DNA from: Candidatus Poribacteria bacterium | GTDB taxonomy: Bacteria; Poribacteria; WGA-4E; WGA-3G | Reading direction: 5' to 3' | Assembly: GCA_026706025.1 (NCBI GenBank) | Contig: JAPOZO010000063.1 | Coordinates: 186,001-250,000 of the forward strand | DNA: 64,000 nucleotides | Part shown: positions 22,624-49,055 of the stretch, one piece after another | Position numbering within the stretch: position 1 is the stretch's first letter | How the letters are laid out: every line of letters begins with the position of its first letter | Notes under the pieces: model-generated | Database searches by the model: none | The model's input: only the letters and a program-made list of their open reading frames with translations | Told to the model about the DNA's origin: nothing | Program-made: the position numbers and the translations under genes

Positions 22624-25323
22624 TTAAAAAACTGAAATGTGGAGGGGACGACTTGCTGAACGCCCCTCCGCATCCACACAAGTAATCACGTGTTCCCCTT
22701 TGATAGGGGTCAACCAGTACGGCTGTTCAGCATTCCCCTTAAAAATCAATTCACCATCCAGAAACCAGAATAACTCCTGTGTCCGATTGGACGCTGAGGC
22801 TGACAATTGTATTTTTTGCTGCGCTAATGGGACCCCATCGCGTATGTAGTACACAGTATCTTCTGTGGGAGATAGGATGACCGGGGCAGTCCCTGCAATT
22901 GTGCCTGTACACAAGGGGTTGTGTGCTGGGAGCACTGGCATAGCAAATCCATTTTTTGCAAGCCAAGTCGCTGCCTCGGCGGGCCATTCTTCAAATATTT
23001 TCGTCTGTAGGTTTGTGTCATGTTGGCGAGACGCGTCTTGAGAATGGTTTTCTCCTGTTGTCGGCAGGTTCCGGCAGTGGGAACAGAGACTGTATCCGGT
23101 AACTTCATCGACATAGATGCGTTTGTGAATCACGCAGGCTTTAACAGGTGAAATACCGGGGATATATACATCGTTTTTACGAGTGGGACAGTGTGGTGAA
23201 GGAGGCGCACCTGTGAGTGCACAGACCTCTCGCGTTTTGAGTTGTTCAGGTGTTGTATACCAACGGTGTGTATCTTGTCCTGTGAGTGCTGTGAAGAGTG
23301 CGAACAGAACAGGCGTTGCTGCGTCTGTGCCGCTCAACATCGGAGCACCTTTTCCGTCAAAATTGCCGAGCCACACACCGATTGTTAATTTCGGTGAATA
23401 CCCGATACACCACGCGTCCCGATGTCCATAAGAGGTACCAGTTTTCCATGCAATCTTCGGTAGATTCATGGTCATTTCAAAGGCTTCTGGATTTTTAACA
23501 GTGTTGACCGGTAGTTGTGAGGTTGTTAGCATCTCCGTTATAATGAAACTCGTCTCTTCTCGGAGTAAACGTTGTGAATAGGCTTTAGCCTTCAGCCATC
23601 GGGAACCTTCAGCAAGAAGATTTTCTGATTGATGACCACTGATAACTATTTGGTAAGGCGCGAATTCTCCCATATTTGCCAGCCCCGCGTAAAGTGTTGT
23701 CAACTCCAGCAGATTCACTTCGCAGCCACCGAGAACCATGGAGAGTCCATACTTTTTGCCGGATGCGAGTGTAGAGATACCTGCTCGTTTCAGAAAAGCG
23801 TGCAGGGTTCTATTTTTCAGCCGCGCATGAAGATTCACAGCGGGGACATTGAGGGAGCGAGCAAGTGCCTGACGAGCCGTAACGTAGCCATTATAGGTGC
23901 TATCATAGTTCACCGGTTCATATCCCTTGTATGTAACAGGAACATCAAAGAGCAGTGTTTCTGGTGTAATCAAGCCTTGTTCGATGCCAAGGGCGTAGAC
24001 GAAAGGTTTAAGTGTGGAACCTGGAGAACGCGGGGCGAGTGTGCCGTTTATCTGACCCAATGCACGCTGATCGAAAAAATCGTGAGAACCTACCATTGCC
24101 AAGACTTGGCGGCTTTGGGTGTCCATAACGACGATGGCACCTGTGCTTGCGGTATGGGGTTGCAAGCGGCGGGAGTCTGCGATTCCAGCAGCGGACGCAT
24201 TCAGGTATTCGCGAAGGATACGCACTGCCGTTTCTTGTACCTTCGCGTCTATTGTCGTGTATATCCTGCCATCTGCTGCCCCTTTCCAGTAACGGGTGGG
24301 GCCCCTGGTTTCTGTGTTCCATCGGTTTCCCTTAACCAATAGGCGTGAGAGATGTGGTGCTTTGAATGGGAGCGGGTAACGTTTTGTCGGTATAGGTTCT
24401 CGCAATGCCTCTTGCCACTGCTGTTCGGAAATCTGTCCGCGTGCGCGGAGGCGGTCCAGGACTTTTGCTCGCGCATGCCGGGCATTTTCTGGAAATCTGT
24501 CTGGACGTAAACGTTCTGGCGCGTTCGGAATGGCAGCAAGGAGAGCCGCCTCACCGAGACTTATTGCGTGCTGCGGTTTGTTGAAATAAAATCGGGACGC
24601 TGCCCCTGTTCCAACGATATTCCCACCGTAGGGAAGCATGTTAAAGTAAAAGTTTAGGATATCAGGTTTAGAATACGCCAGTTCAAGTTGGATTGCACGG
24701 AACATTTCAATCAGTTTGCTCGGAACAGTTCGTGCTTTCGGTTCCATCAGTCGGGCAAGCTGCATGGTGATGGTTGAGCCGCCGCGCACAACCTCTCCTG
24801 CTTTGACATTATCATAGAGGGCGGTTGCCATAGACACCGGATTGATCCCGCAGTGGTAGTAAAACCATCTGTCCTCCGCTGTTAGCATTGCTTCGTGTAG
24901 CCAAGGGCTTTCAGTTTTCGGTTTTCGGTTATCAGTTGAAGAGGGATCCTGCTCGACCAAATCACCTCTTAACTGATGACTGATGACTGATGACTGATGG
25001 CTAAAGCGCCACATACCATCCTCAGCTAAAAACGCGCGAAGCCATTCTCCGTTCCGATCTAAGACAATCCGAGAGGGTGGTGGGTGGAGACGTGCTTTGG
25101 GCAGCGGGAAACACCAATTCATGATCGTAAACAGGACAATAATAGAGAGAGGCAAAGTAGCCATCAGGCGAATAGTTATCCGTTGTCGGTACGATTTTTT
25201 CTCCGAAAAAATCTTTCGGTTTTCAGTTAAAGAGGTTTGCTGTTGCTTGAACAGTAGTTTTAACTGCGAGAAGAATCCTCTTAACTGATAACTGATAACT
25301 GATAACTGACAACTATTTTTCAT
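22624..25323 (-). CDS. pbpC: Penicillin-binding protein 1C (with repeat-derived insertions)
   Basis: 899 residues. A membrane segment (about 55-70) precedes a GT51 glycosyltransferase domain (EDRWFYYH near 150, GGSTITMQLAR), a transpeptidase domain with STLKP (near 436), SLN and KTGTS (near 626), and a C-terminal BiPBP_C domain ending ASRPLHISVF. The protein polymerises and may cross-link peptidoglycan in the periplasm. It overlaps the upstream alpha-2-macroglobulin gene by ATGA, the usual pbpC-yfhM pairing. Two MITE copies are inside the frame, at residues about 3-50 and 107-139, making it about 100 residues longer than usual. ATG at 25164 could be the original start region. Confidence 0.9.
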   Translation of the reverse strand: MKNSCQLSVISYQLRGFFSQLKLLFKQQQTSLTENRKIFSEKKSYRQRITIRLMATLPLSIIVLFTIMNWCFPLPKARLHPPPSRIVLDRNGEWLRAFLAEDGMWRFSHQSSVISHQLRGDLVEQDPSSTDNRKPKTESPWLHEAMLTAEDRWFYYHCGINPVSMATALYDNVKAGEVVRGGSTITMQLARLMEPKARTVPSKLIEMFRAIQLELAYSKPDILNFYFNMLPYGGNIVGTGAASRFYFNKPQHAISLGEAALLAAIPNAPERLRPDRFPENARHARAKVLDRLRARGQISEQQWQEALREPIPTKRYPLPFKAPHLSRLLVKGNRWNTETRGPTRYWKGAADGRIYTTIDAKVQETAVRILREYLNASAAGIADSRRLQPHTASTGAIVVMDTQSRQVLAMVGSHDFFDQRALGQINGTLAPRSPGSTLKPFVYALGIEQGLITPETLLFDVPVTYKGYEPVNYDSTYNGYVTARQALARSLNVPAVNLHARLKNRTLHAFLKRAGISTLASGKKYGLSMVLGGCEVNLLELTTLYAGLANMGEFAPYQIVISGHQSENLLAEGSRWLKAKAYSQRLLREETSFIITEMLTTSQLPVNTVKNPEAFEMTMNLPKIAWKTGTSYGHRDAWCIGYSPKLTIGVWLGNFDGKGAPMLSGTDAATPVLFALFTALTGQDTHRWYTTPEQLKTREVCALTGAPPSPHCPTRKNDVYIPGISPVKACVIHKRIYVDEVTGYSLCSHCRNLPTTGENHSQDASRQHDTNLQTKIFEEWPAEAATWLAKNGFAMPVLPAHNPLCTGTIAGTAPVILSPTEDTVYYIRDGVPLAQQKIQLSASASNRTQELFWFLDGELIFKGNAEQPYWLTPIKGEHVITCVDAEGRSASRPLHISVF
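24907..25003. repeat. TTATCAG-family MITE inside pbpC
   Basis: Ends GCTTTCAGTTTTCGG and ACTGATGACTGATGG are inverted; the copy is read in frame as a Ser/Gln-rich loop (SHQSSVISHQLRGD...) just before the glycosyltransferase domain. Confidence 0.7.
25174..25315. repeat. TTATCAG-family MITE at the start of pbpC
   Basis: About 142 bases with inverted ends AGTTATCCGTTGTCGG and four tandem ACTGATA units; read in frame it encodes residues about 3-50 of PBP1C. Confidence 0.75.
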
Positions 25324-28300
25324 TGCTCTGCAACCACTTGGATACTCATACTACCCGTTACAGCAGATTTTGTCGGATCGTACATCGCTTCTGCTGCGAT
25401 GGGTGGTAAAGTAAAGTCACCTTGTGTGACAGCCCTTAGCGCGTAATAGAATTTACGTTCGCGTTGGCGCGGGAACGTCCCGAAGAAGATAAGACGATCA
25501 TCGCGAATGTCAATATAATCGGGTTTGAAACCTTGCGCTTTCAGCCATGGAATGCCTGCTCGGGACTCCAGACGCGGGTTCTCAATCTCAAAACCTGTTG
25601 GTAACATATCGACCACGACGACATTTTCCAGATTCGCCGTCAGGGCTTTAACTGTTATCTCCGCGACGATTAAGTCGCCGTGTACAAATGTGCCCGTGAG
25701 ACTTTCACCATCTTTGTTAAAATATCGACGACGTACCTGTAATTCACGTTCATATTCTTCAATGAAGGAGTCGCGTTGGATACCAAACGCACTCCAGTAA
25801 TAGTAGCAACTCCCTTCGCCTTTGACGGTGAGTTGTATGCGTGCACCGTCCCATGCTTCATCGGTATAGCGCGTCTCGGTCGCGTCAAAATCTGCGAAGT
25901 GTTCACCGTTGAGTTTGAGAGTGCCACTGTAATTCCGATCTGCCTGTTTCTTCATAATTTTACCGAGAGCAAGGAACGCAAAGGCATTATCTTGTGTTGT
26001 CCGCCATCGGTTTCCGTCGGAGGCTGCCTCACTCAGATTCTTAACGAGCATCGGAATAGATGGATGGTTTTCGTTAACTTCAGCAAGCACGTCCAACATA
26101 ATCGCTTGGGCACGAATAGGTGAGTTAAATGTCCCCCCGGTTTCCCATCCCGGGTTGCTTTTACCATTAAAACTTGGCGATACCGATACAGGTAACATGG
26201 AAAGAGCAGTTTCCAGTTCGCCGCTGAGGGCAAACGCCCCAGCAAGTTGAAAGTGACTATAATCACTGAGACTGCTGGCACCCCTGTTTTTTAGATAGTG
26301 CATCGTACCACGGTCGGGTTGTCCAGCAGCTGCCAAGACATAGGACGCATAGGTTGCGAGCGCGATGTTTGCTTTTACCTGTTTAGCATTATTGTTGCCT
26401 TCTATGTCGGGTGAAAATTTTGCCCGTGTACTTAAACCTTCCAGCATCGCATCGTAAACACGGTCTGCTACCTCGTACCCGGCTTTTCGGGCTTCAACGA
26501 GAAAATGGGACGCGTAGATACTGCTCCACGGATTCACGTAAGTGCCGCCGGGCCAGTATGAAAAGTTATTGTTCGACATCAGCATACTTTCAAGTTTCGT
26601 GATACCCGATGTGATGTAGTAGTCCACCGAATCTTCTGCTGCCAGCATCGGTTCGACACTTCGCGCCAAATCGCTGAAATAGAGCAAGGGGAAAACCTTA
26701 CTTGTTGTCTGCTCCAGACATCCGTGTGGGTAGCGGACAAGATAGCGGAGGCTATCCGAAAACGCAATATTGGGAAACGGTGATAGTGTCAAACTAAACT
26801 CCGACGAGTTTGCTATTAGGTTTGCGGGGAGAATAAAATCAACCGATTTACCCGCATGTACCACCCCGTGCCCTGTTTTTGTGACCGGTGGTGCCACAGA
26901 TCGCAGCGGCAGTTTCACGTCTATTTGCGTTGTTTCAGTGTTCCCTTCTGCGGATAGATTAAAATCTACTTTTCCTATTGCATCCTGAGCACGAATGTCG
27001 AAAAAGACTTGTGCCTCTGTGCCTGCCTCAACTTTTTTATCAACGCTGAGTTCATGCAGCAGCGGTTCCGTTTTTGACGGTTGTGATGGATTTTCTGGGG
27101 TCTTCTCAGTCATCGTATCAGAAGGATTGATGGCACTCGCTGACAGTAGTTGCACGTCCCCTGATGCTTGCAATTTGACGGTGAATTCTCCATCCGCACC
27201 TGTGCCGTTAAAAAGGGTGACTGGGACACGGATCTTATCACCGCCTGCGAGGAATCGTGGGAAAGTCGGTGTTAGGACAATAGGTTCGCGGACAGTCAAG
27301 TAGGCTGCCGTCGCGCCGTAATCTGCTCCGGCGAGAGCGACTGCCATCAACCTCAATTTCCCATTGAACTGTGGAATCTTGAATTGGACAGTCCCGCGTC
27401 CATTTCCATCGGTTTGTACGAATCCTGACCAAAGTGAAACCGGTTTTACGCGCCTGATACTGCTCGTATTCAGCCGCTTCCTTCCCAATCCGCGTGCGCT
27501 TGCTCCATCACCGCCCGTACTTGAGTTGTCGGTGACATCCGCGATTTCAGGTAGAATCCCACTATACAGATCAAAGGCGCGCGTCTTCAACCCGCGTTGT
27601 TGATAGAAAAAGTCGTGAGGGTTAGGTGTTTGGAAGTCGGTTAATGCGAGGATTCCCTCATCAACAGCTGCTATACAGACATCATATTTCTGCCAGGAGC
27701 GTCTGCCGTGGACCTCGAACGCGATGTTTATTTCGCTGTTTGGATGAACAACAGTTTCAGATTCGCTATCGGGAACCATCAGCCCTCGGTTATCGGTAAG
27801 AGGTGTTCGTTCTTGCTGATTGCTATCAGGCTTGAGCGACATTTCAATTGAGAGTCGTCTCCGCGTTGCATCTATTTTCAAAGGTATCACACCAAACGCG
27901 CGTGCCGGGAGAAGCGATTTGTTGTCTGGTTGTGAGCCCGTATCCGTCGGGACAGCTCGCGTCAGGGTTGCTGAGAGGTAGACGTTCGGTTTGTAACCTT
28001 CACGGACCGGAATTGACAAAGTTGCTGTATTTTCCTTTATTACTATTGTTCGGTGACTGAGCACCCGTTCTCGTTCGACAGTGAGCAGAAGCGTCCCTGG
28101 GAAGGGTGCCTTAATATTCAGTTTTGCTGTCTGTCCTGGACGATAGGCGGGCTTATCAAGCACCAAGTCTAATCGGGTAGGATGCTCCATAGAGACTGAA
28201 GTGTTGCGCCATCCACTCACGTAGAACCCTATTTCCGCTGCTGCCGTTGATTCGATGTCCTCAAGGCGAACGCGATATTCACCATAGCCCGTAGGGGTAA

Positions 28301-31004
28301 ATGTCGCTGTTTTCGGTGTTTCTGCTGAAGTGAGTGCGTGTGTTTTCACCTCTGTCATTTGTGGTTCGGAGACGTACTCGTAACGTCCTGCGGCGTTCTG
28401 CCGAAGTATTGTATTCCAATGAAGTTTGTGGAGGCTGAGTTTTAAGGCTCTACCGGGTATAACTGCCATTGTATCGTCAACGGCTACGTAATCAAAGCGA
28501 AGCGGTTGGTTAATTTTGACCGCTCCGGTAGTTGTCCGCCGAATCCCTGCATAATGTGAGTACGGATGGATAACAACTCGGTGTGAAGCAGTGACAGCTC
28601 TGCCGCCGACCTCACTGACGGTTGCTGTTAGAATCCCGTTGAGTAAAGAAGGTGCTTTCAACGTTGCCGGAACAGTAAATTGGTAACGTGCTTTGCCCTC
28701 TGCATCGGTTTTGGCTTCTCCTAATTCAATCCGTTGGGTCTCAAATTGCTTGGTATTGCCGAAGACGAAGGAACGCCATTTTGTTGCATCTGTACCTGGT
28801 GGTAAGGTATCGTCAGAAACGGCAAACGGGACTGCTGCCAGTTGACATGAAACCTGAACTTTCCGTCCTACGGCTGGGGGACCGAACAGATTCATTGCAT
28901 TTACTTCAATGTTAAGTTCGTCTCCAAGTTTATAAGAAGATTTATCAACACTTATGGCAACTTTCATTCGGTCTGGCATGAATTCCTCAACCTGAAATTG
29001 CACGCTTCCAACGACTCGATCGGCAATTTGCATCTTAGCAATATAGTTCCCTGTTAGCGCGTAGTCAGGAATCGGGATTTTCACTTCACAGGCACCACTT
29101 TTGTTAGTTTGCTGCCTTAATTCTCGTATGATTCTGCCATCTGGTGCGAGGATTTTGATGCGGGTGGGGAGCGGTTCAGGTGTTTTCTGCTTTGGTCCCC
29201 GAACGATGCCAGCAAGCTGAACAGTCTCACCTGGACGATAGACCCCCCTACTGGTATAGAGGAACGCTTCATAGCCTTTTTGCAAGTAAGCAGGGCCGGC
29301 AATGTCAAAGTCTGCTGTTGCAATTTCATGCCTGTCTAATTGGATAAAGGCGAGATCGTCACGTTTCGCGACCGTAATCATAAATGGTATGAAATCTTTT
29401 GTTTTTTCTGCAATCTCAGTGAATTCCGCAAATCCTGCCCAGTTGGTTGTACCGCTGAGCAGCGTCTGGTTGTTGGCACTGATGAGTTGCACACGCGCTG
29501 CTGGTACGGGGGTGCCAGTAGCAATGGATTTCACCCAAACGTATAAATTATCGCCCGCGCGTTTCGCACTGATTCCCAAATCTGTGATGAGCACCCATTG
29601 ATGTGCTCTGTCCCACTGCCTATCGGCGTTTTGTGCCACAACCTTGAAAATACCGACATGTTCATCCGCGAGATAGTCCTCTAAGGAGATGGGTGTCGTT
29701 ACCTCTTCGTTCAATTGAGGGGGTATATCAAGTACTTCCGAGTGAATAGGTTTACCTAAATTCCGACTCCATCGGCTCCATTTGTCTAATCTTGATACAT
29801 AGATGAGGTTGTTCGCAAAAACTTTCTCAATATTGAGCTTTACACCTTTAACGTTAATCGTTGTGAGTCCAAGATTTAGATGTCCTTTTCTTGCGAGAAA
29901 GAAGCCGTCACCAAGGAACCGCAGCTGCGGTCGAATGTCTGGAATTTTGAACCGCGTCATATAGTCCCCTTTTAAAACTGCGTCGTTTCGTGCTGTCAAA
30001 CCGCGCCGAATTTTCAGGGTGTAAGTGGTACGTCGTTTAAAATTACCGTGGATTCTAATGTTCCGATAATTGGATGTCACTTGATAGTCGACTGCAGGTG
30101 TAACTTCAAGATAAGGTTCAAGCGTATCGCTGAGTACTGGCGCGTTAAAACTGACTGAAATATAAGGGGTCCCGTCACTTTCTCGAACGTCTGAATATGT
30201 TACACCGAGGGTTCCTCTACCACGCAGTATTACCGGTGTAACGTTTGCTTTTTCCAGACCGATTTCCCCTCCTGTACATTTAAATCCCTTTTCAATCTTG
30301 ACTTTTATTTCTTGGTTTACGTCGCTGCGTTTTATCCGTTTCGTCTCGAATGTTATTGTCCGCGCTGTCACCGTGTCGGTTTGAATCTGATACGGAATTT
30401 CTGTTCCATCATCTAATTCAATAGAGAGATGCGCCTTTAAATCGGCGGTCGTTACTGGATAATTAAATGTGATTGTGCCGAAACCTATTGCGTGTTCACG
30501 GGATTCGTCAGTGTTAAATTCCATGCGTGTCTGCTGAACTGCGAAAGGTTCTGTGGCGAATTTAAACTCTTTTTGCCCGGTGAGCTGGAATACTTCAGAT
30601 GGATTGATTTCGGATGTGAGTTTGACAGTATATTGTGCGGCGGGTGCTAAAGGGGCATCTAAAAAGAAACCTATTCTATCAGGTGCTATCCAGCGAGCAG
30701 TGCCTTGAACGGCTGGTGTAAACCGAAGGGCTTCCGTTGGGACTTCGGTCCCGACACGCGATTTATCAACGATTCCCTCGGAAAAGGTAATCGAAAAATC
30801 GGTCCGTTCGGGGACTTCTCCTTGTGGCTCGAAAGTGTTGACGCTGTATCGTGTCTTGGTGCTCATGTTCCCCCGCACAATGTAGAGCAGGCAGGCACCA
30901 AGGAGGAGCGTCATCAATCCTATGACCCCGATTAAACTTTTTAGTAGCAAATTTCGGTTTCCAGGCTCCGCCGAAAGATTTTTGGAAAGTTTGGAAAACA
31001 CCAT
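25320..31004 (-). CDS. Bacterial alpha-2-macroglobulin (YfhM-like), thioester type
   Basis: A 1894-residue giant envelope protein. The N-terminal hydrophobic segment ends LLLGAC, a lipobox-like site, so it may be a lipoprotein. A chain of MG beta-sandwich domains follows, and the thioester motif GCLEQ is intact with its Cys near residue 1429, followed by an alpha/alpha toroid-like domain and a C-terminal receptor-binding-like domain (LENVVVVDMLPTGFEIENP). Such proteins trap foreign proteases in the periplasm; genes next to pbpC suggest protection when the wall is repaired. GGAGG precedes ATG 31004. Some loops near 27780-27830 look repeat-derived. Confidence 0.92.
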   Translation of the reverse strand: MVFSKLSKNLSAEPGNRNLLLKSLIGVIGLMTLLLGACLLYIVRGNMSTKTRYSVNTFEPQGEVPERTDFSITFSEGIVDKSRVGTEVPTEALRFTPAVQGTARWIAPDRIGFFLDAPLAPAAQYTVKLTSEINPSEVFQLTGQKEFKFATEPFAVQQTRMEFNTDESREHAIGFGTITFNYPVTTADLKAHLSIELDDGTEIPYQIQTDTVTARTITFETKRIKRSDVNQEIKVKIEKGFKCTGGEIGLEKANVTPVILRGRGTLGVTYSDVRESDGTPYISVSFNAPVLSDTLEPYLEVTPAVDYQVTSNYRNIRIHGNFKRRTTYTLKIRRGLTARNDAVLKGDYMTRFKIPDIRPQLRFLGDGFFLARKGHLNLGLTTINVKGVKLNIEKVFANNLIYVSRLDKWSRWSRNLGKPIHSEVLDIPPQLNEEVTTPISLEDYLADEHVGIFKVVAQNADRQWDRAHQWVLITDLGISAKRAGDNLYVWVKSIATGTPVPAARVQLISANNQTLLSGTTNWAGFAEFTEIAEKTKDFIPFMITVAKRDDLAFIQLDRHEIATADFDIAGPAYLQKGYEAFLYTSRGVYRPGETVQLAGIVRGPKQKTPEPLPTRIKILAPDGRIIRELRQQTNKSGACEVKIPIPDYALTGNYIAKMQIADRVVGSVQFQVEEFMPDRMKVAISVDKSSYKLGDELNIEVNAMNLFGPPAVGRKVQVSCQLAAVPFAVSDDTLPPGTDATKWRSFVFGNTKQFETQRIELGEAKTDAEGKARYQFTVPATLKAPSLLNGILTATVSEVGGRAVTASHRVVIHPYSHYAGIRRTTTGAVKINQPLRFDYVAVDDTMAVIPGRALKLSLHKLHWNTILRQNAAGRYEYVSEPQMTEVKTHALTSAETPKTATFTPTGYGEYRVRLEDIESTAAAEIGFYVSGWRNTSVSMEHPTRLDLVLDKPAYRPGQTAKLNIKAPFPGTLLLTVERERVLSHRTIVIKENTATLSIPVREGYKPNVYLSATLTRAVPTDTGSQPDNKSLLPARAFGVIPLKIDATRRRLSIEMSLKPDSNQQERTPLTDNRGLMVPDSESETVVHPNSEINIAFEVHGRRSWQKYDVCIAAVDEGILALTDFQTPNPHDFFYQQRGLKTRAFDLYSGILPEIADVTDNSSTGGDGASARGLGRKRLNTSSIRRVKPVSLWSGFVQTDGNGRGTVQFKIPQFNGKLRLMAVALAGADYGATAAYLTVREPIVLTPTFPRFLAGGDKIRVPVTLFNGTGADGEFTVKLQASGDVQLLSASAINPSDTMTEKTPENPSQPSKTEPLLHELSVDKKVEAGTEAQVFFDIRAQDAIGKVDFNLSAEGNTETTQIDVKLPLRSVAPPVTKTGHGVVHAGKSVDFILPANLIANSSEFSLTLSPFPNIAFSDSLRYLVRYPHGCLEQTTSKVFPLLYFSDLARSVEPMLAAEDSVDYYITSGITKLESMLMSNNNFSYWPGGTYVNPWSSIYASHFLVEARKAGYEVADRVYDAMLEGLSTRAKFSPDIEGNNNAKQVKANIALATYASYVLAAAGQPDRGTMHYLKNRGASSLSDYSHFQLAGAFALSGELETALSMLPVSVSPSFNGKSNPGWETGGTFNSPIRAQAIMLDVLAEVNENHPSIPMLVKNLSEAASDGNRWRTTQDNAFAFLALGKIMKKQADRNYSGTLKLNGEHFADFDATETRYTDEAWDGARIQLTVKGEGSCYYYWSAFGIQRDSFIEEYERELQVRRRYFNKDGESLTGTFVHGDLIVAEITVKALTANLENVVVVDMLPTGFEIENPRLESRAGIPWLKAQGFKPDYIDIRDDRLIFFGTFPRQRERKFYYALRAVTQGDFTLPPIAAEAMYDPTKSAVTGSMSIQVVAEQ

Positions 31005-31372: not shown

Positions 31373-32539
31373 TCAGAACCAAAATCGTGACATCAAAATA
31401 ATCTGGTCTGTACCCTGAAGTTGGCGTAATGTGCCTTTATCTTGGATAGTTTCATCCTCGCCACGGTCAGCATTTGTAAGGTTTGCCCAGTAAAACAGTG
31501 AGATCGCCCCGTTTTCCATAAAATTGTATTGGGCACTGAGTGTCACCCGCTGGCTTGCGTCCCCTTTAAGTGTTCTATCTGGATCGAACAATCCGTATCG
31601 ACCTGCGATGGTGAGCTGGGGCAGGAGTCGGTATTTTGCACCGACGTAATAACCTTTTGAGTTGATGTCATCCGATGCGAAAGAGGATATCGCGCTACTG
31701 TTCCCAAAATTGAACTCTCCTTCTATACTCAAACCCGCGTAGGATGCGGTGAGAAAGGCACCGATAAGGCGTTCCCAGTCTTCACCGGGTTTTTCGAGGA
31801 TGCCAGAAATGCCAGCTCTGACGGGTCCGAGTTGCGCACCAAGTGTGCCGAGTCCGCCTTTCGCTGCAGCGTTATCGGCGTTAAAGAAGGCTGCATTGTA
31901 AAAAACTTTACCTGCATTTCCACCCAGTTCAACCCCGACATCCCGTTTGTTAGAACCGAGACCATATCCTTCCCGAACAAGTATGTTGTGATCCTTCTGT
32001 TTAATGGCGAACGGGAGACGGAATTGCCCAACTTTGACATAGAGGTATTTCGGGATAGCATCTACCGTTGCAAACGCATTCATCGTTGTTCCAGCATTAT
32101 TAGAAAGCGTAAGTCTGATGTGTTCTGAGGCTTGGGCATTGAAGGTTACTTCTGCTTGCATCAATAGGAATCTGTCAATAGAGGAATGGCATGAATTGCA
32201 GCTGGCTATCGCATTTTGCTCTGCGTCAACATGTGTTGTTTTGATGAATGCGGTCTGGAAATCAAGCGATGTGGTGAGTTGTTTAACAACCTCTTTGGCT
32301 TCTTCAGTCACAGCTTCCATGTCGAAATCTTCGGGGAATTCAAAATAGTTCTCTTCAAAAATTTCACCGATACGGTTCCGGGGACCACCGCCTGCGGGGT
32401 CGAGGTGACAAAAGCTACACTCTTTCTCAAGTTCGGTTGCAAACTCAGGACGTGCTTCTGTATCAGTCGTTAAGAAAAAACTGAGCGCGATACAGACTAT
32501 GAATGCGAACCGTAGCAACGATAGCGAGACACGGGACAT
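31373..32539 (-). CDS. Outer-membrane porin fused to a diheme cytochrome c
   Basis: About 388 residues from the ATG at 32539, which gives a normal signal peptide (cleavage near residue 29); an upstream ATG at 32611 is possible. Two c-type heme sites are present, CSFCH (41-45) and CNSCH (114-118), followed by about 265 residues of amphipathic beta strands ending in the outer-membrane signature SRFWF. The layout, cytochrome head plus beta-barrel in one chain, recalls Cyc2-type iron-oxidising outer-membrane cytochromes, which carry one heme. It could pass electrons across the outer membrane. The cytochrome P460 gene lies upstream on the same strand. Confidence 0.8.
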   Translation of the reverse strand: MSRVSLSLLRFAFIVCIALSFFLTTDTEARPEFATELEKECSFCHLDPAGGGPRNRIGEIFEENYFEFPEDFDMEAVTEEAKEVVKQLTTSLDFQTAFIKTTHVDAEQNAIASCNSCHSSIDRFLLMQAEVTFNAQASEHIRLTLSNNAGTTMNAFATVDAIPKYLYVKVGQFRLPFAIKQKDHNILVREGYGLGSNKRDVGVELGGNAGKVFYNAAFFNADNAAAKGGLGTLGAQLGPVRAGISGILEKPGEDWERLIGAFLTASYAGLSIEGEFNFGNSSAISSFASDDINSKGYYVGAKYRLLPQLTIAGRYGLFDPDRTLKGDASQRVTLSAQYNFMENGAISLFYWANLTNADRGEDETIQDKGTLRQLQGTDQIILMSRFWF

Positions 32540-32619
32540 ATTCAAATGTTTTAATCGTGAGGTGGTGTGGCTGAAGTGCCGCACACAGTTATTATAATGT
32601 GTGTTCAACATTTTCTTCA

Positions 32620-32650
32620 GATTGGAATCTCCATGCTTTAGCTTGAAGAG
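32620..32650. repeat. Possible right end of the IsrB-like element
   Basis: The minus strand reads CAAGCTAAAGCATGGAGATT, similar to CAGCCTAAAGGCTGGAGATT at the 5' end of the RNA gene (about 33905-33924). This is what a matching pair of element ends would look like. Confidence 0.4.
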
Positions 32651-32662
32651 GAAAATCTGCCT

Positions 32663-33731
32663 TTATATATCGAAAGTGAGTTGGAGTGCTAAGTTATTCT
32701 GTTCCACTTTCGGTTGTTTAGACACGAGGTCGTATCTAAAGTTAAGTCTGGTTAATATTTTACAATCCTCTAACTTTGCAGAAAGGATTAGTCTTTTACC
32801 ACCTTGTATAGGTTGTAAAGATAAACCGCCTTTTTGGTAGCCACACACTGCTGCTATACCGTGTTTGACATGCTTCACAAGAGTGTTCTTTACTACACCG
32901 AGACACATTGTACCTCCAAATCGTGGTCTTTTACCACCTTTCTGTGGTAATTGTCTATGTAGTTGTCGTCTCTTAATCTGTAAAGGTGATATACAGAATA
33001 TATCTGTATTATCCACAGTTGGTTCACCGCCAATCACATGATATGCCAGGCACCAGCTATCCACACAATGTGTCTCAAAAGATTTGGCAGTCCTATCAGA
33101 TGATTTTTTCAAACCAAGACTATCACGTATAGACTTTGTTTCGTAGCCTTGTATAGTTAAGTAACTGCCACATCTTTTCAACCTCACCATAGAACCAGTT
33201 TTTACCCACTTCAAGCGGACTAAACGACTGGTTCCATTTTTTAGCACCTTCCCAGGGACTCGCCTTAATATCTTCTACGCATATATGTGTGACCGGATAG
33301 AGTTTATCGAGCCAGTTAAGTATGCGCAGTTTCCAGTCCCACCTGGCACGAGTTCCAGCGGGTATGCGTTCTTTATTAGCAAGACGGTTCGTGCGGTTTT
33401 TTCTGTTAGGACACTTTCGTGAACGCCTACCACGCCTTAACTCTCTGCGATTCTTGACCTTCTTCGCAGTATGAGTATGTGCATCCGCCTGAACATTCAG
33501 ATATGTATGGGACTCAGATTTGACGGTGAAACCCTCTTTCTGACTACCAGGATCCACACCCACACATATCTCCTGCGTCCATTCTTTACTTTGATAATTC
33601 AGACGTATACAAAATATACCGTTGTCCCAGTAAGGCGTTGCCTGACCTGACTTAATCATCATAGCAGCGCGCGTTTCTGTTGTAGGCATTAACCGTTTAC
33701 CCTCTTTACTCTTTACAGGAACGAAATTCAT
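32663..33731 (-). pseudogene. isrB: IsrB-like (HNH-less IscB family) RNA-guided nuclease, frameshifted
   Basis: The first frame (33731-33123) carries the PLMP/RRXRR N-terminus (RLMPTTETRA), RuvC-I (VGVDPGSQKEGFTV, D60), an arginine-rich bridge helix (RRELRRGRRSRK) and RuvC-II (ICVEDIKA, E153). The second frame (32663-33247) continues with GYETKSIRDSLGLKK and RuvC-III (HCVDSW). No HNH domain lies between RuvC-II and RuvC-III, which is the mark of IsrB, a family shown elsewhere to nick DNA with an omega RNA. The frames join by +1 at about 33171-33179, near a run of four A. Either a dead gene, a sequencing error, or programmed slippage. Length when joined (about 355 residues) fits IsrB. Confidence 0.8.
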
Positions 33732-33930
33732 CGTAAACTCCCTTGCGGGCTATATGTTTCCCCATTGAGATCACAATACAGAGAGGAATCAGACTTGAGG
33801 AGCATCCGAAACATCTTGTTGTGTGCCACCACAAGCATTGCGATATATTACTCTATTCAGCGTCTCACGTTGTTAGGGTCCCAGCTGGCTGCCGATATTC
33901 TAACAATCTCCAGCCTTTAGGCTGAAGTCA
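33732..33930 (-). ncRNA. HEARO/omega RNA of the IsrB-like element
   Basis: The 199 bases directly upstream of the nuclease start, free of a conserved reading frame, begin on the minus strand with a perfect hairpin CAGCCTAAAGGCTG (33911-33924) and contain several further pairing blocks (GGCAGCCAGCTGGGACCC, GTGGTGGCACACAAC). Position, size and the leading hairpin match HEARO RNAs, now known as omega RNAs of IscB/IsrB. In that family the guide is taken from the sequence just outside the element's left end; here that would be the end of the P460 gene (TTTTCACAGAACTTCA). Confidence 0.65.
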
Positions 33931-34503
33931 CTGAAGTTCTGTGAAAACATAATCAATGTCTTCAACTCGGGTGTGGCAGCCCCAACACACACCGTCTTTA
34001 GCAATGACGGTGAAGTCAGCATCCGGTGCGTTTCGGACATATTCGATGAACTCCCAATCGTTGTGATCAGGGTCTACGCCTGCTTTCTTCCGCATAATCG
34101 CGATGAGTCCCACATAATCCTTACCGGGACGATTTGCTTCCTTTACAACGATACTACCATCCGGGTATGGGAACTGCTGTTCGCCGTTTGGTGCGATGTC
34201 TTCCCGTGTTTTGTTGACATAAACGTTTTTGGTGCCGTTGTGTGGGTCCCCGCCAGGGACGGGAGGGATAGGTTCAGCGTTTAATTTGAGCCATTGTGTA
34301 TAGCCTGCCACATCATCAGGTAAGCCGGGAAGTGCGACTACTGGTTCTTCAGGTTGGACAGGTTCTTCTGTCGTCTCAGGTTTTTCTTCTTCTTGCTGTT
34401 CAATGAGTTCTTCCAACTGTTTTTCGGCACACGCACTGAGAAGTAGACAGCTTATCAGTATTATTGCGAGGCAAGATAGCAGGTTTCGTGTTTGCGTTTT
34501 CAT
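33928..34503 (-). CDS. Cytochrome P460-family lipoprotein
   Basis: About 191 residues from ATG 34503, which has GAGGG upstream; the longer frame to 34569 lacks support. Lipobox LLSAC places the lipidated Cys at 25. After an acidic Glu/Pro-rich linker comes a P460-type domain: NGTKNVYVNKT, YPDGSIVVKEANRPG and NDWEFIEYVRNAP, ending with the heme site CWGCH (173-177). P460 proteins oxidise hydroxylamine or detoxify NO; here it may feed electrons to the downstream cytochrome-porin. Its stop codon sits exactly at the left edge of the IsrB-like element. Confidence 0.8.
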   Translation of the reverse strand: MKTQTRNLLSCLAIILISCLLLSACAEKQLEELIEQQEEEKPETTEEPVQPEEPVVALPGLPDDVAGYTQWLKLNAEPIPPVPGGDPHNGTKNVYVNKTREDIAPNGEQQFPYPDGSIVVKEANRPGKDYVGLIAIMRKKAGVDPDHNDWEFIEYVRNAPDADFTVIAKDGVCWGCHTRVEDIDYVFTELQ

Positions 34504-34743: not shown

Positions 34744-35041
34744 GGCATAGGGTGTCCTATTAATTCTAAACTTTACTATAATACTCCAAAATGTAATACA
34801 AGGACAAATCGTCCTTTACCGGAATTTAGTATAAGACAAAATAGCAAACATTTCAAGGAAATTTGTAATTTGTATGTGTCCTATCTTTTTCCAGTAAGAA
34901 ACGAGGACGTGGATATTTCGTTGACCATTGATAACTAATTTTAGTTTGCCTTTCTGGTTGTTGTTACAGTATCATATGGATGTAGAAAATTCAGATGCGG
35001 CTGCTGAAGCCACAAATACAATAAAAGAAAAAGGAGAGATA

Positions 35042-36037
35042 ATGCTCAGAAATTTGTTTAAAGGTAGTGATGAAAGCCGCGAAGCATCCGACGTTGGAGG
35101 TAAGCAAGAGAACTGGTTTAATCGGCTCAAGTCCGGTTTAGCAAAAACTCGGAGCCAGTTGATGTCGCAGTTATCAGGGCTCTTGCGGATGGGTAGAAAG
35201 ATTGACGAGGACCTGATGGAGGAAATCGAGGAGATTTTGATCCAAGCAGATGTCGGTGTTGATACGACGTTGATGCTAATGGATAACGTGAGGGAGAGAG
35301 TAAAAGCGGAGGGATTAAGTGATTCTTCGGAATTGGAATCGGTCATAAAATCGGAAATTCTGAAGCTGCTTGGTGAAGATATGCCGCTGGACGTTAAAGA
35401 TGAAAGACCGTACACAATTTTAGTGCTTGGTGTGAATGGTGCCGGAAAAACGACGACTATCGGTAAACTTGCGAGTCGTTTTATCACGGATGGGCGGCGC
35501 GTGCTTGTCGCCGCGGGGGATACATTTCGCGCTGCAGCGGAAGATCAGCTCGCCATCTGGTGTGAGCGGGCGGGTGCCGAACTGATTCGCGGTGGAGAGA
35601 ATGCCGAACCTGCTGCTGTCGTCTTTGATGCAATTCACGCAGCGAAGCATCGCAATGCAGATGTGCTAATTGTGGATACTGCTGGGCGGCTACATACCAA
35701 AAAGCCGTTGATGGATGAGTTAGCGAAAATCGGACGTGTGATGGGACGAGCGCATGCTGGGGCACCACATGAAGTACTCCTCGTCGTTGATGGGACAGTA
35801 GGTCAGAATGCTTTGATGCAAGCGAAGATTTTCAACGAGGCGGTACCAATTACCGGTGTCGCTGTTACGAAACTTGATGGGACAGCGAAAGGCGGTATTG
35901 TCATTGGGGTGAATGCTGAGATTGGCGCGCCGGTCAAACTCATAGGGATTGGTGAGAAACTTGACGATTTGAGGGATTTCACAGGGGCAGATTTCGTTGA
36001 AGCACTCTTTGCAGCAGAAGAAACCACGGACATATAG
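35042..36037 (+). CDS. ftsY: Signal recognition particle receptor FtsY
   Basis: 331 residues. The NG domain is complete: the N-domain helices, G1 GVNGAGKTTTIGK (from about residue 130), DTFRAAAEDQL, G3 DTAGRLHTK, G4 TKLDGTAKGG and the closing GIGEKLDDLRDF. FtsY brings SRP-bound ribosomes to the membrane. The ATG at 35042 has AAAAAGGAGAG just upstream; the upstream part of the frame (from 34928) lacks support. The acidic A domain is short, as in many non-proteobacterial FtsY proteins. Confidence 0.95.
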   Translation: MLRNLFKGSDESREASDVGGKQENWFNRLKSGLAKTRSQLMSQLSGLLRMGRKIDEDLMEEIEEILIQADVGVDTTLMLMDNVRERVKAEGLSDSSELESVIKSEILKLLGEDMPLDVKDERPYTILVLGVNGAGKTTTIGKLASRFITDGRRVLVAAGDTFRAAAEDQLAIWCERAGAELIRGGENAEPAAVVFDAIHAAKHRNADVLIVDTAGRLHTKKPLMDELAKIGRVMGRAHAGAPHEVLLVVDGTVGQNALMQAKIFNEAVPITGVAVTKLDGTAKGGIVIGVNAEIGAPVKLIGIGEKLDDLRDFTGADFVEALFAAEETTDI

Positions 36038-36818: not shown

Positions 36819-37697
36819 TCACTGGTTCGTTTGTTTATAAACACTACAAAACCAACGTTTATATCTTTGACTATCCTGAACCATCTGTTGTAGAAGTGTT
36901 AATTCTTCGTCTTCTTCAGCATGTGGCGCGGTCTCGAGTAAGGCAATCAGTTCCTCGTAGACGACGTTGTCTTCATGGGCAAGTGCTGAGAGTAGCACCT
37001 CCATATTTTCACCACGGCCGAGTAGATTCAACAGTCGGTTCGTATGACGAATTTCCTCGGAGGCGGCTTGGTTTAAGTACGCTGTGAGTTCGTGTTCATT
37101 CTGCTTTTCTGCGATTTGCGCGAGAATCAATCGCATCCCGACAAGTTTCAGTTTTGCCTGTGCGAGTTCGTCCAAGTCGGCTTTAAACCGTTTTTGGAGA
37201 TGATCCGCATCGCGAGGGTGTAACTGCGCATAACTTGGCCATATAGGCTTCGCCATCACCTGTTTCAACCGTTTCAGGCTTTCAATCAGATTTTCACGTT
37301 CTTGCGTGGATAGCTGCCCAAAAGTACTTTGCCAAAAATCTGCCGCGTGTTCTACACCCTCTCGGAAAAGTTCTTCAGATTGCGGCGTGAGTTTAATCCG
37401 AGCGCGTCTCCGGTCCTTATCACATTTACGACGGATTACCCAACCATGTCGTTCCAGACGACTCACTAACCCAGATGTTGTGTTATGGGCAAGACCCAAG
37501 TGCTCACCGAGTTCACTCACTGACATACCAGCATCCCGACCATACCAATGTAGATGTTGTAGGGCGTTAAACTGGACAATCGTCAGGCGATTCGGGACAA
37601 CTTCTTGAATGAATCTTGATTTGACAGCCGCTTGCGCATGACGCATCACACGCATTACGACATCAATCTCGTTATGGAATTCTTGGTCTTTAGACAT
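36819..37697 (-). CDS. MarR-family regulator fused to a ferritin-like helical domain
   Basis: 292 residues. The N-terminal half is a MarR winged helix (MSVSELGEHLGLAHNTTSGL, DRRRARIKLTPQSEELFREG). The second half (about 190-285) is a long helical bundle with EQNEHELTAYLNQAASEEIRH-type acidic and histidine residues that resembles a rubrerythrin or ferritin-like domain; metal ligands are plausible but not proven. MarR proteins repress drug, acid or oxidant responses, so a metal- or oxidant-sensing tail is a reasonable inference. No ribosome-binding site is seen before ATG 37697. Two palindromes follow its strong promoter (37814-37825, 37786-37809), consistent with self-repression. Confidence 0.75.
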   Translation of the reverse strand: MSKDQEFHNEIDVVMRVMRHAQAAVKSRFIQEVVPNRLTIVQFNALQHLHWYGRDAGMSVSELGEHLGLAHNTTSGLVSRLERHGWVIRRKCDKDRRRARIKLTPQSEELFREGVEHAADFWQSTFGQLSTQERENLIESLKRLKQVMAKPIWPSYAQLHPRDADHLQKRFKADLDELAQAKLKLVGMRLILAQIAEKQNEHELTAYLNQAASEEIRHTNRLLNLLGRGENMEVLLSALAHEDNVVYEELIALLETAPHAEEDEELTLLQQMVQDSQRYKRWFCSVYKQTNQ

Positions 37698-44286: not shown

Positions 44287-46755
44287 CTATTTGATTGGAA
44301 CATTCCAGAAGAGGATAGTGCCAACAGGACTTCGGAAGTTACTGCCCCCATTCGTGCTTGCGAGTGTTTTTCCATCAGGTGCGAACGCCAATTTGTTAAT
44401 ATAACCTGCAGAGGATTTGAATGTAGTGAGGTGTTTGCCAGTGGATAGTTCCCACAAGCGAATTACACCACCTGCATCTCCGCTTGCGAGGATTGTGCTG
44501 TCTGGCGAGAATGCTAATTGATAGATGATGTATTCGTGTCCTTTGAGTGTTGAAATACGTTCTTGTCTGGCAAGATTCCACAAGGAGATGTTCTTATCTT
44601 CATTTCCCTCGCCGATGGCAAGGGTTTCCCCATCAGGTGCGAACGCCGCTGCATCTGCCGGAATGTTGAGTGTTACAATTTGCTCGCCGGTGTATGTATG
44701 CCACAAGCGTACGGCACTGTCATCACTGGTTACGAATGTTTTTCCATCGGAGGCAAACGCCAATATAATATCCCCCCACGTCACATCAACGATAGTGCAC
44801 AACGGTTTGCCAGTGGAAATATCCCATACCGTAATCTTTTCCCCTTTCTTCCGATTTTGAAAATCGTGAAAAACAGCCAGTTTTCCACCTCTTGCGGTCA
44901 ATGCAGCTAATCCCGAAAGGTATTGAACGAAGGTGGTTTTAGAACTTTTTGACATTCTTATCCTTCCATCCCTTGCTGCGCCCGGAATGTTGTGAATGTT
45001 AATTTTTTTCTTATTGGAAACATTCCACGTTTCAATGTTACCATCGCTTTCACTGATAAGGGTTGCATTGTCTATGCCAAAGGTTAATCCGTCAATAGGT
45101 TTGCCTGCACTCGATGTAAAGGTCGTGCGCGTGGAACCTGTATTTAGGTCCCAGAGTTGAATTTTACCACTTGTATCTCCGCTTGCAAGTGTTTTTCCAT
45201 CGTGTGCAAATGCCAAGGTCGTGAACATTTTTGTATAGCCTGTAGTGAAAGTACGCAATTGTATGCTGGTTAGGGGCTTCCATACATTCACTGTGCCGTT
45301 TTTATCTATCACGGCAAGGATTGTGCCATCTGGAGAAATGGCAGCAAGGGTTGGTACCTCCCGCTGCTGAGCAGCAGAGCGTTTCGGCATGAGCGCAAAC
45401 CGCTCTCGGACTGTATTAAGCGCGGTGATTTGAGAGCGTTTTGCAATATCCCATATTGCAAAGTTATTGTTCCTTATAACGGCGAATATCTTGCTATTAC
45501 CAGCAAATTTCACATCTACCTCCCCATTGAACACGGCAATTTCAGTGCGGGTGGTGACATCCCATATTGCACAACCGCCGCTTCCGATAATAGCAAGGGT
45601 TTTTCCGTCTTCTGAAAATTTTATGTCCACATCCGACCAACGGGATTCATAAGGAGGCAGTGCTGCGAGTTGTTCTCCTGCAACAACGTCCCAAATTTCA
45701 GTTGGACCTTGGTGCGCTGACCAACCACCATTCAGATGATCTACCATCCGGTACTCACTTCTACTCACAAGTGTTTTCCCATTCGGTGCAAACTCTAACC
45801 CGGTCACCCATTTCACCCATGTTGTGGGCAATTCATTTGGAATCGGACGGGCATTACCCGGGCGGCGCACTCTATCTTGAATGGGCAAAGATAGTTCAGC
45901 GTCGGTAGATCCTGTAAATGTCCTTATCTGTTGGTGGGTGGATCCATCTTGTATGCTAATTGTGCCTTCTTTGTCTCCAACAGCAAATGCAAAAGTGGCA
46001 CCACCAGTGAGATCAACGAAAGTATCTGTCGCAAGTTTCCATTTGTCGGGAGCAGCAGGACTATCCATCTGAAGCCAAGTCTTGTATTTGTCGAGTCCGG
46101 GTTTAGGCAGCTTTGGACTGTAAGTGACAAACTGTTCCTCGGTAGTAATGTCCCAAAGCCAGACTGTTCCGCTTGAATTCTGAATCACAAGTGCTTGGCT
46201 ATCGGGTAAAAATTTAAACGAATTAAGTGGACCACCAAAGATGATAAATATTGACTGCGTTTTGTGATCGGGTAAGAATTTAAAAGATTCCACTTCATCA
46301 GCAGGGATAATAGTTGTTGACCATGTACCATCAGTTAAAAATTTAAATAACTGAGCCGGAGCGACAGGCATACTTATTGTAAGTAGGTGTTTACCCGTCT
46401 CGGTGTTCCATATTCGGATAGTATCATCATATCCACTGCTGGCAAGTGTCCTGCTATCCGGTGAAAATACCACCCGTGGGATAGTTTCCTCAACTTTATG
46501 CTTATATTCTCTACTAAAGAGTGCGATTTCATTGCTTGTGTTGACATCATAGAGCCATACGCCAGCGGAACTCGCAATTGCTAAGCGGGTGTTGTCGGGC
46601 GAAATCTGTATATCCGTTACAATACCTTTTCCGAGACGCGATTTAGCACCTTCTGGCAGCTCCCACTTTGTATAGTCTTGTGCAAGGGTGTTCGTTGGAG
46701 ATAGCACTAAAAGGATGAGTAACGTCGGAAAAGTAAAAAATAAATTTATTTTCAT
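44287..46755 (-). CDS. Secreted WD40-repeat protein (third of three)
   Basis: About 822 residues from ATG 46755. A signal peptide (MKINLFFTFPTLLILLVL... ending TLAQ) leads into the shared block DYTKWELPEGAKSRLGKG, then many WD40 repeats (e.g. VVFSPDSRTLASSGYDDTIR, LAFSPDSTILASGDAGGVIR) that should fold into two or more beta propellers. Repeats in the middle are more degenerate than in the first gene. It probably acts outside the cytoplasmic membrane as a binding scaffold. Function unknown. Confidence 0.8.
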   Translation of the reverse strand: MKINLFFTFPTLLILLVLSPTNTLAQDYTKWELPEGAKSRLGKGIVTDIQISPDNTRLAIASSAGVWLYDVNTSNEIALFSREYKHKVEETIPRVVFSPDSRTLASSGYDDTIRIWNTETGKHLLTISMPVAPAQLFKFLTDGTWSTTIIPADEVESFKFLPDHKTQSIFIIFGGPLNSFKFLPDSQALVIQNSSGTVWLWDITTEEQFVTYSPKLPKPGLDKYKTWLQMDSPAAPDKWKLATDTFVDLTGGATFAFAVGDKEGTISIQDGSTHQQIRTFTGSTDAELSLPIQDRVRRPGNARPIPNELPTTWVKWVTGLEFAPNGKTLVSRSEYRMVDHLNGGWSAHQGPTEIWDVVAGEQLAALPPYESRWSDVDIKFSEDGKTLAIIGSGGCAIWDVTTRTEIAVFNGEVDVKFAGNSKIFAVIRNNNFAIWDIAKRSQITALNTVRERFALMPKRSAAQQREVPTLAAISPDGTILAVIDKNGTVNVWKPLTSIQLRTFTTGYTKMFTTLAFAHDGKTLASGDTSGKIQLWDLNTGSTRTTFTSSAGKPIDGLTFGIDNATLISESDGNIETWNVSNKKKINIHNIPGAARDGRIRMSKSSKTTFVQYLSGLAALTARGGKLAVFHDFQNRKKGEKITVWDISTGKPLCTIVDVTWGDIILAFASDGKTFVTSDDSAVRLWHTYTGEQIVTLNIPADAAAFAPDGETLAIGEGNEDKNISLWNLARQERISTLKGHEYIIYQLAFSPDSTILASGDAGGVIRLWELSTGKHLTTFKSSAGYINKLAFAPDGKTLASTNGGSNFRSPVGTILFWNVPIK

Positions 46756-46786
46756 CCTGTTGAATGTCTCAAGTTGATTACATTTG

Positions 46787-49039: not shown

Positions 49040-49055
49040 TGCGTCGCGTTCCTTT

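Follow-up and report, generated by a model that had tools for sequence, protein, structure and literature searches.

A two-heme cytochrome-porin encoded beside a P460-family lipoprotein in Poribacteria, a candidate outer-membrane electron conduit

Outer-membrane proteins that fuse a cytochrome and a porin in one chain are already known from Cyc2, which was modelled with 16 strands on an OprO/OprP template (Keffer et al. 2021, PMC8406198; published statements here and below are taken from excerpts or abstracts of the papers cited). In the same work it is argued that Fe2+ must enter the Cyc2 pore to some extent, and the single heme of Cyc2 leaves the electron's crossing of the remaining barrel unexplained. 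In the MtrAB, MtoAB and PioAB systems, the barrel has 26 strands and the hemes are carried by a separate decaheme protein (PMC8406198). Here we describe a cytochrome-porin with two heme motifs, encoded in a 64,000-nucleotide stretch of a Candidatus Poribacteria bacterium (assembly GCA_026706025.1, contig JAPOZO010000063.1, positions 186,001 to 250,000), called the window in the following, which belongs to contig C63 of a genome of 6.27 Mb (G000). The genes lie on the minus strand, in the transcription order P460-family lipoprotein, frame-broken RRXRR/IscB-like gene (33731..32663) and porin (Table 1). Judged from its conserved motifs and a predicted barrel, the porin is, on balance, probably a single-chain two-heme outer-membrane cytochrome-porin that conducts electrons across the membrane.

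The porin open reading frame (31373..32611, minus strand) codes for 412 residues from its first in-frame ATG, at 32611, and for 388 residues from the ATG at 32539. The 388-residue protein has a signal-peptide-like N-terminus and ends in SRFWF. Past the signal region it possesses four cysteines only, all of them in the motifs CSFCH (heme 1) and CNSCH (heme 2); both motifs and the SRFWF ending had been pointed out in a preliminary description of this DNA. The heme-1 pattern is present in 69 distinct homologues, of which 65 carry both motifs and four carry one, and CXXCHx[DN]PxGxGxRNxxG is kept in 69 of 69 rows, most of this pattern having served to select them. Four of the 103 loci were left out for having no heme-1 pattern in the chosen frame: L081, a fragment; L091 and L097, both frame-broken; and L102 (family f7), a monoheme protein with CVQCH and with RT replacing RN. 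L097 (family f8) shows both motifs ahead of its frame break, and in L091 the three frames that were read contain CTSCH but lack a CXXCH for heme 1. The alignment (A1) holds 59 of the 69 distinct rows. In its 55 diheme rows, C114, C117 and H118 are kept throughout, while identity averages 58% over the loop residues 102–113 against 78% over residues 87–388, and the motifs are 73 residues apart in 52 of the 55. Since the three heme-binding residues are invariant while the loop around them varies, the motifs are not there by chance, and the accidental presence of CXXCH in a plain porin, a possibility raised in the preliminary description, is ruled out.

The AlphaFold2 model built from the 59 rows agrees with the β-barrel proposed earlier: it has 16 strands spanning residues 87–387, with a mean predicted local distance difference test (pLDDT) of 66.5 and a predicted template modelling score (pTM) of 0.67, and the C-terminal Phe is present in 58 of the 59 rows. 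The N-terminal heme domain (residues 23–86) and residues 105–121 have a pLDDT below 50. After re-alignment with VIA-align, OprO comes first (Z 24.0, r.m.s. deviation 3.2 over 281, 14% identity) and OprP second (Z 23.8), followed by an OprO mutant (Z 23.7) and, from rank 4 (Z 23.3) down, by general porins; the lead is slight, as matches within one Z unit are tied, and the Foldseek ranking by E-value places general porins on top, OprO and OprP moving ahead only after the re-alignment. At the sequence level, the Porin_O_P family (PF07396) has no match in G000 at E 0.01, the window porin included, and matches 3 of the 59 homologues at E 0.01 or better. A search of the PDB sequences with the porin profile returned a single match (E 0.024), restricted to the N-terminal profile positions 9–45.

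The second heme motif lies inside loop L1 of the model, between strands b1 and b2. As both ends of a porin are periplasmic, L1 is expected to be extracellular, and heme 2 would be situated in the first extracellular loop. Among the monoheme relatives, the nearest one (L098) retains the b1–b2 hairpin with a short loop and has no second motif. In a tree of 31 rows, the monoheme proteins of family f7 are separate from all others, and L098, whose branch is very long, falls among the diheme proteins; we are unsure of this position and of a loss of heme 2 in that protein. His184, carried by loop L3, is the sole histidine outside the CXXCH motifs that is invariant across the 59 rows, monoheme rows included, and probably serves as the distal ligand of heme 1. 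Heme 2 may be five-coordinate or ligated by Met127 of strand b2.

The neighbouring one-heme P460 lipoprotein of the preliminary description is recovered with a lipobox (LSAC), a match to PF16694 (48.3 bits, cut-off 27) and a C-terminal CWGCH motif. In the alignment A2, which comprises 28 of the P460 rows listed, Lys121, Ala135 and His88 are each invariant. Lys121 occupies the heme cross-link position: its spacing from Gly116 equals that of Gly73 and Lys78 in McP460 (PMC6427953), and it aligns with Phe61 of the Thermus cytochrome c′-β (7ead), the cross-link position in Table 2 of PMC11928373, if the HMMER gap just before Lys121 is ignored. The family match, the C-terminal CXXCH and this lysine (Lys70 in the Ne protein, Lys78 in the Mc protein) are the marks of cytochromes P460, and cytochromes c′-β are set apart by having no Lys there. 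Ala135, two residues before the conserved Met137, stands where hydroxylamine (NH2OH)-oxidizing members carry a distal carboxylate (Glu96/Asp102); NsP460 likewise has Ala at this position and does not oxidize NH2OH (PMC11928373, PMC6427953). His88 holds the distal capping position, where every solved superfamily member listed in PMC11928373 has Phe or Arg. The lipoprotein is probably a cross-linked P460 without NH2OH oxidation, and its heme is possibly six-coordinate.

Within Poribacteria, a phylum known mostly from sponges, a porin homologue is present in 74 of 84 genomes, and in 52 of the 55 more complete ones; a P460 match is found in 72 of the 84 when weak paralogues are counted. Gene order was counted at one place per genome, excluding weak P460 hits below the best one of G016. 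Both the porin and a strong P460 match are present in 66 genomes. In 58 of these, the P460 gene precedes the porin on the same strand at a distance of up to 1.4 kb (up to 200 bp in 48 of them), which makes it a conserved neighbour; the other eight have the two genes on different contigs, and several of the assemblies are fragmented. Four genomes (G002, G004, G027 and G032) have weak P460 hits only, and a porin match occurs in none of them. One genome (G077) contains 14 P460 matches, against one to three in most others, which marks a lineage-specific expansion. About 870 bp upstream of the diverged monoheme porin, on the same strand, L098:5916-6311 codes for a lipoprotein-like protein with one CXXCH, by prediction another heme lipoprotein beside a cytochrome-porin. 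The porin is single-copy in G000, no second copy having been found there. A pattern scan of genome contigs matched Poribacteria only, with patterns that catch close relatives and imply no absence elsewhere, and tblastn searches of plasmids with the window porin and with the monoheme relative gave no matches.

A third component is encoded with the pair in one genus. In all six genomes of genus g8 (family f3; G018–G023), a gene encoding a membrane protein with two CXXCH motifs follows the porin by 52–391 bp on the same strand (the G019 copy is frame-broken), and in G015 a C-terminal porin end lies just before this gene, on another contig. The protein has transmembrane-like helices with conserved His in the transmembrane-like part. 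Over 32 rows, in which some genomes appear more than once (loci fetched twice), both CXXCH motifs are kept in 32 of 32, His49 and His85 in all 31 covering rows and His108 in 31 of 32; the alignment A3 holds 21 inner-membrane rows. Orthologues are found in 68 of the 84 genomes, G000 included (C89:132842), where the gene precedes a Rieske/glutamate-synthase-like one and is remote from the porin. In Pfam, the g8 protein matches Cytochrome_CBB3 (29.8 bits, cut-off 27) and the G000 protein Cytochrom_C (24.0, cut-off 21.3), and a PDB sequence search with the inner-membrane profile gave no match. In families f1–f3 the occurrence of the gene resembles that of P460 and porin, but it follows the tree, which makes the g8 gene order the stronger evidence. 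A four-transmembrane inner-membrane cytochrome is likewise encoded beside a porin-cytochrome complex in Methylobacter (PMC13322032). An outer-membrane electron conduit had been suggested from this locus before; the joining of an inner-membrane cytochrome gene to the P460–porin pair in g8 lends support to that role, which we still hold as a proposal.

According to this proposal, the N-terminal domain would hold heme 1 at the mouth of the barrel on the periplasmic side, or within that mouth, where His184 from the constriction loop L3 is its likely distal ligand, and heme 2 on the first extracellular loop would carry the electron to the surface or near it. The P460 lipoprotein and the inner-membrane cytochrome would trade electrons with the porin in the periplasm, giving a path that could run in either direction, from inner-membrane cytochrome through the periplasm (possibly by way of the P460 lipoprotein) to heme 1, heme 2 and a partner outside. 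With heme 2 near the surface, that partner need not enter the pore as deeply as has been suggested for Cyc2 with its single heme; the likeliest candidates are iron outside the cell or small redox compounds. G000 has cytochrome c assembly proteins (3 matches) and one COX1. For the cross-linked heme of wild-type P460 proteins, potentials from −340 to −424 mV are known (PMC11928373), and such values would suit an outward electron flow, provided that the P460 lipoprotein is in line. We further put forward, tentatively and as a possibility we would sooner doubt than assert, that the protein is a minimal heme wire across the membrane: heme 1 would close the porin at its periplasmic mouth, heme 2 would have been added to L1 of an older one-heme cytochrome-porin and would carry the electron to the surface, and the protein would form, with the His-capped P460 lipoprotein and the inner-membrane cytochrome, a core extracellular electron exchange system of Poribacteria.

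Several observations weigh against an electron conduit of this composition. The low pLDDT of the heme-bearing parts puts heme positions and distances beyond the reach of the model, and the alignment of 59 rows contains no invariant distal ligand specific to heme 2. Eight genomes have a porin homologue and no P460 match, and the inner-membrane gene is unlinked to the porin in most genomes, so that neither is an obligate genetic partner. Co-occurrence tracks the tree and is weak evidence alone, and the inner-membrane protein was modelled poorly (pTM 0.41).

Among the other explanations, the one that survives best is a Cyc2-type oxidase or reductase, an enzyme rather than a surface wire, whose substrate, in solution, for instance Fe2+ or a chelate, would come into the barrel and react with one of the two hemes, the electron passing to or from the periplasm. 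The build is the same, an N-terminal cytochrome followed by 16 OprO/OprP-like strands; AxPxFA occurs in 62 of the 69 rows, and entry of Fe2+ into the pore has been argued for Cyc2 (PMC8406198). Heme 2, for which the alignment offers no invariant further ligand, could be accessible to a substrate. However, neither the full Cyc2 motif AXPXFAR[Q/K][T/Y] upstream of CXXCH nor PXL within six residues downstream of it is present in any of the 69 rows, and we consider this explanation unlikely. We also know of no iron-oxidizing lifestyle in Poribacteria, which counts against it.

Less probable still is a nitric oxide (NO) or peroxide module, in which the P460 lipoprotein would bind a small species of nitrogen or oxygen, with the porin cytochrome feeding or draining electrons or admitting the substrate. 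Proteins with the P460 fold do bind NO, and some oxidize NH2OH (PMC11928373, PMC6427953); the gene pair is conserved, and PMC8546597 mentions denitrification genes as reported for Poribacteria, that study itself having found few nitrogen genes. The invariant Ala135, as in the inactive NsP460, speaks against such a module, as do His88, which could close the distal site, and the eight porin-bearing genomes that lack a P460 match.

An ordinary uptake porin, whose hemes would only sense the redox state or brace the plug with no electron flow across the membrane, would account for the general 16-strand fold and for the many ordinary porins that come within two Z units of the first-ranked structure, but it is very improbable in view of two strictly kept heme motifs and of the heme-protein genes that adjoin in most lineages. 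Just as improbable is a periplasmic diheme carrier tethered to a barrel of which b1 is no strand, which the pLDDT below 50 in both heme regions would allow, but which leaves 15 strands and conflicts with the b1–b2 hairpin of L098 and with the alignment of model residues 79–388 to OprO 9–414 (end residues only compared), by which b1 should match the first OprO strand.

The RRXRR/IscB-like remnant, absent from the preliminary description, belongs to an insertion of about 1.3 kb between the two heme genes, both of which are intact. In the window the gene is broken over two frames (33731..33123 and 33247..32663). The insertion is shared with the sister genome G054 (L136; L039 is apparently the same contig) at 99.4% likeness, with a single gap in the alignment, and the G054 protein is whole, with 355 residues and no HNH match. 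Its size and lack of HNH resemble IsrB, a family of RNA-guided nickases; the segment 33740-33925, upstream of the RRXRR gene, may hold a guide RNA. An Rfam search of the window gave no match.

Table 1. Positions of the porin, P460 lipoprotein and insertion features in the window.
Feature	Position	Strand	Basis
Diheme cytochrome-porin, 388 aa	31373..32539	-	open reading frame; homologue alignment
Predicted 16-strand β-barrel, residues 87-388, C-terminal Phe	31376..32281	-	AlphaFold2, structure search
His184 in loop L3 (175-198)	31988..31990	-	invariant in 59/59 rows; candidate distal ligand of heme 1
Met127 in b2	32159..32161	-	invariant in 59/59 rows
Loop L1, residues 102-121, between b1 (87-101) and b2 (122-136)	32177..32236	-	model; putatively extracellular from porin topology
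Heme 2 motif CNSCH, residues 114-118, inside loop L1	32186..32200	-	sequence, model, alignment
Heme 1 motif CSFCH, residues 41-45, N-terminal domain	32405..32419	-	sequence, alignment
Insertion of ~1.3 kb separating P460 and porin genes	32612..33925	-	ends approximate; RRXRR/IscB-like gene in two frames
P460-family lipoprotein, 191 aa, lipobox LSAC25	33928..34503	-	Pfam match, alignment
CWGCH heme motif of P460 lipoprotein	33973..33987	-	sequence, alignment
Ala135, distal carboxylate position needed for NH2OH oxidation	34099..34101	-	alignment
Lys121, heme cross-link position of cytochromes P460	34141..34143	-	alignment; spacing
His88, distal capping position	34240..34242	-	alignment

On the P460 side the locus is flanked by an FtsY-like gene with SRP54 domains on the opposite strand (34928..36037), and downstream of the porin by an open frame of 1894 residues (31004..25320), then by a penicillin-binding protein (25323..22624). 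The latter frame starts with SCQLSVISYQLRG and repeats SHQSSVISHQLRG internally, repeat-like tracts within a coding frame. At 36819-37697 a MarR-type regulator has an extended C-terminal half with a weak rubrerythrin-like domain match (E 0.052), and an extracytoplasmic function (ECF) sigma factor adjoins it. Three long frames in tandem (848, 779 and 624 aa) at 44287-50930 have a similar mature start, AQDYT; frames resembling them are present in L131, near the inner-membrane cytochrome.

A natural two-heme relative of the cytochrome-porins, with one-heme relatives in the same phylum, makes the crossing of the barrel a question that can be tested by comparison or by removal of the loop heme. If the proposal is true, a core route by which electrons are exchanged with the surroundings is present in most sampled Poribacteria. 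No mention of such a route was found in the open-licence literature searched, mostly at abstract level, nor of the two-heme form, the L1 heme, the P460 neighbour or the Poribacteria-wide occurrence.

Compared with Cyc2 of Acidithiobacillus ferrooxidans and Mariprofundus ferrooxydans PV-1, the window porin has in common a signal peptide, an N-terminal c-type cytochrome fused to a predicted 16-strand OprO/OprP-like porin and, in 62 of the 69 rows, AxPxFA just ahead of CXXCH. It differs in its two hemes, the second in L1, in the pattern CXXCHx[DN]PxGxGxRNxxG that replaces R[QK][TY] and PxL, and in the P460 lipoprotein neighbour. With the published motif in none of the rows and two CXXCH motifs in the window porin and 65 of 69 homologues, where Cyc2 is defined by one heme, membership in Cyc2 is rejected, and no Cyc2-named model of Pfam or NCBIfam matched the window porin; of the earlier label of a Cyc2-like protein with two hemes, the build and the heme count stand and the Cyc2 identity does not. 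The OprO/OprP porins (Porin_O_P) are the best structural match, at 14% identity. To our knowledge, these phosphate porins have no heme domain. MtrAB, MtoAB and PioAB share the placing of hemes inside or across an outer-membrane barrel, here in one chain with two hemes and 16 strands. The MtrB/PioB barrel family (PF11854) has no match in G000, by a search whose control matched 1 of 14 genomes, below the cut-off, and this type is rejected as well. From the P460/cytochrome c′-β superfamily, with which it shares the family match, the C-terminal CXXCH and the lysine at the cross-link position, the neighbouring protein departs in being a lipoprotein with Ala at the catalytic carboxylate and His where solved members cap with Phe or Arg. 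New here are heme 2 in L1, not present in the monoheme relatives, the candidate ligand His184, the third gene in one genus and the Lys/Ala/His pattern of the P460 lipoprotein.

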